From NCBI GenBank assembly GCA_016291135.1, contig JAEFAE010000001.1, positions 186,001 through 250,000 of the forward strand: DNA of 64,000 bases, given 5' to 3'. Source of the DNA: Bacteroidales bacterium (lineage in GTDB: Bacteria > Bacteroidota > Bacteroidia > Bacteroidales > F082). The translations under genes were made by a program, and so were the position numbers. This document shows, piece by piece, positions 32,524 through 35,238 of the stretch. Each line of letters begins with the position of its first letter. Position 1 is the first letter of the stretch. Below the pieces are notes generated by a model that ran no database searches, was not told where the DNA came from, and saw only the letters and a program-made list of their open reading frames with translations.

Positions 32524-32631
32524 CGGGTGCGCTTCGTGCCCGCGAGCGTACGAAACACCCCCAAAAGGCACATTCGTAACGGACCGAAGGGAGTTACGCC
32601 GTGCCGTTGGGGGTGTTTCGTTAAGCGAGGG
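32524..32631 (+). repeat. Structured intergenic element, copy A
   Basis: Hairpin I 32524-32542; hairpin II CGAAACACCCCCAA..TTGGGGGTGTTTCG (32551-32620) with inner stem CGTAAC/GTTACG; aligns with copy B. Confidence 0.85.
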
Positions 32632-32665
32632 AGTCACCGCCCTTTACTCAAAATACCCGATACGC

Positions 32666-33235
32666 TTAAAGCGTGTCGATCACCTCACAAAGCTTCTTGA
32701 AGATCTCGGGGATTTCGCCTACGCCGTTCACCGGATGGAGGTTCCCCTTGGCTTCGTAATAGGCCAGCACCGGCTTGGTCTTGGCTTCGTATTCCACGAA
32801 ACGGTGCTTGATGGAGTCGATGTTGTCGTCGGCACGGCCGCTGATCTTGCCGCGCTCGAGCATGCGCTCGATGAGCAGGTTCTCAGGCACCTCGAGGCTC
32901 AACACGCCTGAAAGTGCAATGCCGTATTTCTTCATCATCTCGTCGAGGATCTCGGCCTGCTTGACGGTACGCGGATAGCCGTCGAACAGGAATCCGGGGG
33001 ACGCGATGTTTTCCGACAGCTTTTTGTCGATGATGGCGGCAACAATCTCGTCGGAGACAAGGCCTCCCTGGCTGATGATGCCTTTCACCTGAAGGCCGAG
33101 CTCGGTTTCGGCGGCAATCTCCTCGCGGAGGATCTCACCGGTGGAGATATAGGTTAACTGGTATTTTTCGCGAAGGAACTGCGACTGGGTTCCCTTGCCT
33201 GCCCCTGGAGGGCCGAAGAGGATGAGGTTAAGCAT
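32666..33235 (-). CDS. adk: Adenylate kinase
   Basis: LILFGPPGAGKGTQSQFL and FLFDGYPRTVKQAE. Confidence 0.95.
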   Translation of the reverse strand: MLNLILFGPPGAGKGTQSQFLREKYQLTYISTGEILREEIAAETELGLQVKGIISQGGLVSDEIVAAIIDKKLSENIASPGFLFDGYPRTVKQAEILDEMMKKYGIALSGVLSLEVPENLLIERMLERGKISGRADDNIDSIKHRFVEYEAKTKPVLAYYEAKGNLHPVNGVGEIPEIFKKLCEVIDTL

Positions 33236-33285
33236 GGTATGTTACTTTGTTAATTCGTTCAAAAAAAAACTGTTGTCTTCTGTAC

Positions 33286-33831
33286 TTACTCTTCCAACTC
33301 CATCACCTTATAGATGTCGGGAAGGTTGCGACCCTGCTGGTCGTAGTCAAGACCATAGCCCACGATGAACTCGTTGCCGATGTCCATGCCCTTGTAGTTG
33401 ATGGTATAGTCGTATTGGAAGTTGGCGGGTTTGAAGAACAGGGTGGCGATGCGCACATCGGACGCCTTCAGGTCGCGCAGCTTCTGGAGGGTGTAACGCA
33501 TGGTGTGTCCGGTATCGACAATGTCTTCCACGACGACCACATGACGACCGTCGAGCGAGTGGTCGAGCCCAATCAGCTCACGCACCACGTTGGTGGTCTC
33601 CGTGCCCGCATAGGACGAAAGCTTCACGAAGCTGATCTCACAGGGGATGGTCAGCCGCTTGAACAGCTCGGAGGCAAACATAAAGGCACCGTTGAGCACC
33701 ACGAGAAACAAGGGATTTTTGCCGGCGAGGTCGTGGTTGATCTGGTCCGCCACGGCTTGAATGGCGTTTTCGATTTTTTCCTGAGGAATGTAGAGGGAGA
33801 ATTCCTTGTCTAAGACTTTGACCGTTTTCAT
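33286..33831 (-). CDS. hpt: Hypoxanthine phosphoribosyltransferase
   Basis: VVLNGAFMFASEL, VVVEDIVDTGHTM. Confidence 0.93.
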   Translation of the reverse strand: MKTVKVLDKEFSLYIPQEKIENAIQAVADQINHDLAGKNPLFLVVLNGAFMFASELFKRLTIPCEISFVKLSSYAGTETTNVVRELIGLDHSLDGRHVVVVEDIVDTGHTMRYTLQKLRDLKASDVRIATLFFKPANFQYDYTINYKGMDIGNEFIVGYGLDYDQQGRNLPDIYKVMELEE

Positions 33832-33919
33832 GTTATTAGAATTGGAAACACAAAAATAAGGAATTCTTGGTTTCATACGTTCGAAAAACACTATTTTTGT
33901 ACCAACAAAACAATGTGCA

Positions 33920-34426
33920 ATGAATCCGATCGTAAGCATCATCATGGGAAGCACCTCCGACCTTCCCGTCCTAGAGAAAGCCGCCCAGTTCCTCGACGAG
34001 CTGGAGATCCCCTTTGAGATGAACGCCCTGAGCGCCCACCGAACGCCCCAAGAGGTGGAGCGGTTTGCCCGCGAAGCCCAAGGCCGTGGGGTCAAAGTCA
34101 TCATCGCCGCTGCCGGCATGGCCGCCGCCCTGCCCGGCGTGATCGCTGCCAACACCACCCTACCCGTCATCGGCGTGCCGGTGAAAGGCATGCTCGACGG
34201 CATGGACGCCCTTTTGTCGATTGTTCAGATGCCTCCGGGCATCCCCGTGGCCACCGTGGGGGTGAACGGCGGGTTGAATGCCGCCATCCTGGCGGCCGAG
34301 ATGTTGGCATTGTCCGACGAAGGCATCGCCCAACGGGTGGCTGCCTATAAGGATGGTTTGAAGAACAAGATCGTCAAGGCCAATGAAGAATTAAAAGAAA
34401 TTCAATATAAATATAAAACAAACTGA
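33920..34426 (+). CDS. purE: 5-(carboxyamino)imidazole ribonucleotide mutase
   Basis: IIMGSTSDLPVLEKA..NALSAHRTPQ..AAGMAAALPGV. Confidence 0.95.
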   Translation: MNPIVSIIMGSTSDLPVLEKAAQFLDELEIPFEMNALSAHRTPQEVERFAREAQGRGVKVIIAAAGMAAALPGVIAANTTLPVIGVPVKGMLDGMDALLSIVQMPPGIPVATVGVNGGLNAAILAAEMLALSDEGIAQRVAAYKDGLKNKIVKANEELKEIQYKYKTN

Positions 34427-34427
34427 T

Positions 34428-35105
34428 ATGAGAACACACCACAAACTTGCGCTAGCCATTACCCTGCTGTTTGTTGGGTTCTTTTCCTCGTGTGCCACAC
34501 AAGGTTTCGTATCAAACGTAACCCGTGCCGACATCCAACAAATAGCTCAATTTGAGATCCTTACCGATGTGGGTCTCATCGAGAAAGGCAACAAGATCGT
34601 GAACAATGACTCGTTAACGCAGATCGCCCAAACGCTATTTGAAACTGCATTGACCAAGGAAAAGACACTTCCAGTGACTAATATTATTGTGATTGAAGAC
34701 AATGCCATACACAATCAAGTCCAGTATGAAATAGCAACGCTGATGAATTGTGTGGAGAGTAAAATGCGTCCTAAAAACCTGCCCATTCCACCCACCATCG
34801 ATTCCATTCTTTGCGCACGGAATGAGCGTTTCGGTATGCTCGTTTACGACTGGGGATTTGTCCGCACCGGCGGCAATTACGCCAAGCAAGCTGTCAAAAG
34901 CGTTGCCATCGGCATCCTCACCTTAGGCATGGTGATTCCCGTTTACTATAAAGAGGCGACCCATACTGGCATCCTCATCTATGATGCGAAAAACCATAAC
35001 TTCGCATACGTTGCCAACGTTGAAGGGGAGAGCAGTCCTGTGAAAGAAAGCACCTACCAAAGACATATGCAGGGTCTTACGTGGAGGTATAATAAAAAAC
35101 GCTGA
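34428..35105 (+). CDS. Hypothetical lipoprotein
   Basis: MRTHHKLALAITLLFVGFFSSC lipobox; no family recognised. Confidence 0.65.
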   Translation: MRTHHKLALAITLLFVGFFSSCATQGFVSNVTRADIQQIAQFEILTDVGLIEKGNKIVNNDSLTQIAQTLFETALTKEKTLPVTNIIVIEDNAIHNQVQYEIATLMNCVESKMRPKNLPIPPTIDSILCARNERFGMLVYDWGFVRTGGNYAKQAVKSVAIGILTLGMVIPVYYKEATHTGILIYDAKNHNFAYVANVEGESSPVKESTYQRHMQGLTWRYNKKR

Positions 35106-35112
35106 CGGTCAG

Positions 35113-35220
35113 CGACAGGCAACCCCGTGGGTTGTCGGAGCGTGCGAAGCACCCCCATAAGGCAACTTGCGTATCTCCGAAGGAGATATGCCGTGCCTTA
35201 TGGGGGTGTTTCGCTAAGCG
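35113..35220 (+). repeat. Structured intergenic element, copy B
   Basis: Hairpin I CAACCC-cgt-GGGTTG; hairpin II CGAAGCACCCCCATAAGGCA..TGCCTTATGGGGGTGTTTCG with inner stem GCGTATCTCC-gaa-GGAGATATGC. Confidence 0.85.
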
Positions 35221-35238
35221 ACGAGGTTACCGATAGGG

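Follow-up and report, generated by a model that had tools for sequence, protein, structure and literature searches.

Two similar palindromes near adk and purE, each lodged between convergent genes, raise the question of what kind of element they represent. Inspection of the letters of the window (the whole analysed stretch, 64,000 nucleotides of Bacteroidales DNA) had offered two answers, a REP/MITE-like mobile palindrome or a structured RNA acting on 3' ends. That sequence-only reading had described two copies in direct orientation between convergent genes, and both positions and neighbours were borne out (Table 1). Copy A lies in the spacer between the convergent acyltransferase and adk genes, copy B in that between the convergent lipoprotein and M16 peptidase genes. 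They are homologous hairpin elements of ~85 nt each, share a direct repeat of 32 nt at 84%, and fold far better than their dinucleotide shuffles (A at z -4.9, B at z -10.3, with 0 of 200 shuffles equally stable). Within the window, the pattern GGGGGTGTTTCGYTAAGCGA occurs at the A and B sites only, against 0.00 expected. The interval from purE to copy B is taken up by a small lipoprotein-like gene (34428-35105), which is missing in the congener G013, where purE abuts the M16 gene.

Table 1. Copies A and B and their parts in the window, with element boundaries as set by the covariance model.
Feature	Position	Strand	Remarks
Mini-hairpin upstream of A, outside element	32524-32542	+	folds; missing upstream of most other copies
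Copy A, core of A type	32544-32629	+	R2 match 96.9 bits, E 1.2e-20 (R2 contains copy A)
Copy A outer stem, 5' arm	32550-32564	+	complementary 15/15 to 32607-32621
Copy A conserved core GGCACATTCGTAACGGACCGAAGGGAGTTACGCCGTGCC	32567-32605	+	kept between copies and species
Copy A outer stem, 3' arm	32607-32621	+	partner of 32550-32564
Mini-hairpin upstream of B, outside element	35118-35136	+	unit of separate repeat family GACAGGCAACCCC...GGGTTGTC
Copy B, core of B type	35138-35222	+	R2 match 73.5 bits, E 4.3e-15 (R2 contains copy B)
Copy B outer stem, 5' arm	35144-35164	+	21 nt, 95% complementary to 35194-35214
Copy B conserved core GGCAACTTGCGTATCTCCGAAGGAGATATGCCGTGCC	35161-35197	+	common to several genome copies
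Copy B outer stem, 3' arm	35194-35214	+	partner of 35144-35164

A short base forms the outer end of the element. Inward of it follow ~13-15 bp of outer stem, an asymmetric AA/G step, a GGCA/TGCC clamp and an apical hairpin, and the model of 84-86 positions is matched end to end. The clamp is almost invariant. The conserved core reads GGCAC...ACGGACCGAAGGGAGTT...GTGCC, with internal-loop letters conserved across families, and the outer stem is free in sequence yet kept paired. The core of copy B, GGCAACTTGCGTATCTCCGAAGGAGATATGCCGTGCC, recurs unchanged in 5 other genome copies and with a single differing base in 1 further copy. Two apex types were distinguished, CGTAAC-GGACCGAAGGGA-GTTACG and GCGTATCTCC-GAA-GGAGATATGC. 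In an alignment of 46 distinct copies fitted to the model, 99.2% of paired cells hold standard pairs, both sides have changed at 16 of 20 pairs, and doubly changed cells number 152 against 30.3 in shuffles, while slid controls reach only 37-51% pairing. A structure-free MAFFT alignment of 12 copies, made first, gave the same picture. Of 37 copies testable for the apical (inner) stem, which lies outside the model, 36 have complementary arms, with six letter sets in use. Coding pressure was considered separately: with 2.63 open frames among six, against 2.32 after shuffling, the element is only slightly more open than its shuffles, so that no clear selection for coding is seen.

How widely is the element spread? 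In its own draft genome (2.62 Mb, 83% complete), BLAST with copy B found about 12 places and the covariance model R1 about 24; these counts, as all copy counts given here, depend on the filters, and all genomes are metagenome drafts. The copies are dispersed over many contigs, some in clusters of 2-3 with spacers of ~10-150 bp. Clusters occur both head-to-tail and head-to-head, the head-to-head pairs being found in other genomes. Four divergent copies, together with truncated ones, lie just past 5S rRNA genes at contig ends; the truncated pieces at L068, L069, L073 and L075 stand in tandem there and end in ...CACCTCAGCAACGGACCG. Among 35 congeners searched, three carry copies (G008 1, G013 6 and G023 about 10 places, both strands of one palindrome being sometimes reported) and at least 30 have none. 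When R2 was run on 393 genomes of the order under strict filtering, with few candidates admitted from each, it added one genome from another, distant family, G042. Its three copies have in common an outer stem, TTGAAGGGATTGTA, that differs from the others, and their core can still be recognised as that of the element. Scanning ~85,000 species genomes for the core pattern matched few MAGs, all of them Bacteroidales/Bacteroidia and no Rickettsia record among them; the source is a ruminant (goat, deer, yak), apparently its gut, where the title names one, and the 'RUG' and SRR bins among the matches are assumed to be likewise ruminant. The phage, plasmid and viral sequences searched gave no match to the element. 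In Rfam, the whole window yielded nothing but two tRNAs, the element scoring below the gathering cut-off. The sequence-only reading had staked its proposal on further copies, on covariation and on the lack of a named family; copies abound in the own genome and exist in relatives, the covariation is strong, and no named family was matched. The element was previously unlisted.

The gene context rests on crude ORF calling in draft MAGs: 16 loci are convergent, 8 tandem and 0 divergent, compared with about 21%, 54% and 25% of intergenic bases in the same regions, and most copies lie 0-40 bp from the closest stop codon. Some copies lie within genes. G023 and G013 have a secreted protein in which the palindrome forms an in-frame insert of 27 aa in a loop; in 20 other species, the window's own included, the loop is short and the insert missing. 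A large glycoside-hydrolase-like protein carries the element in the same linker in the window's own genome, G013 and G023. In the G023 linker, the core is in opposite orientation within a near-identical outer stem (L036 against L067 and L042, same codon), which is best explained by inversion in place. The corresponding linker of G008 (L126) holds a different palindrome-like in-frame insert, CHCERNSVKRGN. In-frame insertion in unrelated genes, by which Rickettsia palindromic elements (RPEs) are recognised, was found in two genes, with an empty site for one of them. Such insertions are best known from Rickettsia; those of this gut Bacteroidales lineage, having clear empty sites, make their effects on proteins testable in ordinary genes.

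Mismatches in the outer stem tell which strand folds. With orientation defined by the core, 40 G.T and 8 A.C mismatches are seen in the element's own orientation. When the count is confined to mismatches flanked by pairs and identical contexts are collapsed, G.T still exceeds A.C by 25 to 3 (p 2.7e-5, p-values being indicative only, since copies within one genome are related). A process at the DNA level should produce both in equal numbers, because in dsDNA the same event is viewed from either strand; the excess of G.T on the element's own strand therefore shows that pairing is preserved on that strand. Copies antisense to their host genes give 5 G.T and 1 A.C, too few to decide alone. These observations point to single-stranded DNA or the element's own transcript, rather than host mRNA, as the folded molecule. 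Copies that are orthologous at a site (L054/L045; L067/L042) are separated by changes that pass through G.T states, which implies that the constraint acts in place. With respect to replication strand, inferred from local GC skew, the copies show no clear bias. One-strand wobble bias is an argument, drawn from sequence only, for selection on a folded single strand even where the host transcribes the opposite one, and is relevant to how palindromes devoid of a transposase spread.

We consider the element to be a non-autonomous mobile palindromic repeat of ~85 nt, RPE/REP-like in behaviour, with a conserved core and a variable but paired outer stem, and assign this reading a probability of about 0.72. 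It is the mobile alternative of the two first offered, and it is favoured by dispersal, patchiness, clusters, location beside stop codons or in frame, presence or absence at orthologous sites, and pairing kept on one strand. During copying, a defined strand would fold, either as single-stranded DNA or in the form of RNA made from the element itself, and its core would be recognised by a putative enzyme acting in trans. Copies would then build up at 3' ends, in convergent spacers and in surface loops of proteins, the least harmful places, and effects on the host such as shielding of mRNA 3' ends or weak termination would be secondary. Against this reading, orthologous copies have kept their pairing where they stand, something not required of a dead, purely selfish copy; recent transposition was not seen among the compared genomes; and no mobilising gene was found, R1 matching nothing in the 30 fetched Y1 loci, that of the own genome included. 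As a tentative extension, rather doubtful at present, the element might represent a new class moving as a folded strand, in which a putative enzyme reads the core and the stem serves as support; different pairs of enzyme and core could then account for the species-specific palindromes that follow the same genes in this genus, a part of which would turn into new protein segments.

The other alternative, a structured RNA kept for host function at mRNA 3' ends, as a terminator or a block to exonucleases, would account for copies 0-40 bp behind stop codons, mostly in convergent spacers, for strong covariation with G.U tolerated on one strand, and for the other palindromes found at the adk site in other species. 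However, the eight tandem loci are split into 4 sense and 4 antisense, the rrn copies are antisense, and some copies lie inside ORFs. L062 and the rrn copies adjoin hairpins that already have a T-run. Moreover, orthologous sites do without the element: the acyltransferase gene of G013 and G023 leads straight into adk, leaving no spacer, and copy A is missing; purE and the M16 gene of G013 stand stop to stop, and copy B is missing. The absence of a poly-U tract, remarked on in the sequence-only reading, was confirmed by reading the sequence. An intrinsic terminator, i.e. a G+C-rich hairpin followed by a U run, was rejected, no T run following the stem in A, B and most copies. We therefore regard a 3'-end RNA as unlikely. 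Individual copies possibly act as terminators or 3' shields, a role that leaves the antisense, intragenic and post-terminator copies unexplained.

It is very improbable that the element is a neutral palindrome perfected by template-switch (quasi-palindrome) correction of DNA, with no function of the folded strand. Such correction agrees with pairing kept even within coding sequence and with a core inverted in place between species, but it is strand-symmetric, contrary to the 25:3 ratio of G.T over A.C, and does not explain the internal-loop letters of the core, conserved across families. Hardly credible is membership in the GTAG or CGTC REP superfamily moved by a RAYT: locations and clusters are of the kind reported (PMC3733652), a Y1 gene exists in the genome and CGTC/TGTC-type palindromes abound in the genus, but the end tags GTAG and CGTC are unenriched (27 and 17 copies against 22.1 and 25.2 expected by shuffling), the length is ~85 nt instead of 20-40, a different repeat flanks the Y1 gene, and none of the 30 Y1 loci has the element nearby. 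An attC-like site was set aside because conservation is at the apex, not at the stem base.

Like RPEs (PMC10969869, PMC3733652), the mobile palindrome is dispersed both between genes and in frame within unrelated protein genes, has no known transposase and varies in sequence between copies. Unlike RPEs, which belong to another phylum and by description have another sequence, it has ~85 nt with a conserved core in a variable outer stem and occurs in either orientation at one gene site; it also lacks the CGTC tag of RPE-4 and RPE-6. With GTAG/CGTC REPs it shares 3'-end and convergent locations, clusters in both orientations, some copies in genes and a single-strand hairpin. Those REPs are units of 20-40 bp with an unpaired tag, the GTAG type having RAYT neighbours (PMC3733652), whereas our element is not of that size and neither unpaired tag nor RAYT neighbour was seen. 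MITEs are likewise small, non-autonomous, patchy and furnished with inverted repeats, but a typical MITE has conserved ends and a variable middle, the reverse of what is found here. No parent transposon with matching ends was noticed in the 20-kb surroundings fetched. A target-site duplication was likewise not found, the flanks in relatives having diverged too far to delimit one.

The sequence-only reading had counted a small 5' hairpin as part of the element. The covariance-model boundaries exclude it and most other copies lack it, a mini-hairpin standing directly upstream in few copies only. At B, L037 and L034 (L034_1264) it is a unit, CCGACAGGCAACCCC...GGGTTGTCGG, of another repeat, to which the mini-hairpin of A is unrelated in sequence. 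The unit of this second repeat that forms the mini-hairpin of B, GACAGGCAACCC...GGGTTGTC, also adjoins element copies on contigs C14 and C44, and the genome contains 24 copies of the repeat's motif GCTACCGACAGG but a single match to the reversed control. Arrays of GCTACCGACAGG flank the sole Y1 (IS200/RAYT-like) transposase gene of the genome (L020, G000:C10:13284-13628), and the two together look like a separate REP/RAYT system.

Further palindromes occupy the adk site in other species, for example TGTCATTGCGAG...CGCAATGAC in G020 and G008. Behind adk at L185, L186, L189, L190, L192, L196 and L197, in several species of the genus, stands a palindrome other than the element, in some cases of TGTCATTGCGAG type; several unrelated families thus use one niche. 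The TGTCATTGCGAG...CGCAATGAC family is abundant in the genus and in its letters resembles the CGTC/TGTC-tagged class described in PMC3733652. Open frames of ~390-400 codons at G048:C103, G040:C160 and G050:C3 contain two adenylate-kinase-like matches each, and are possibly tandem adk fusions in other families.
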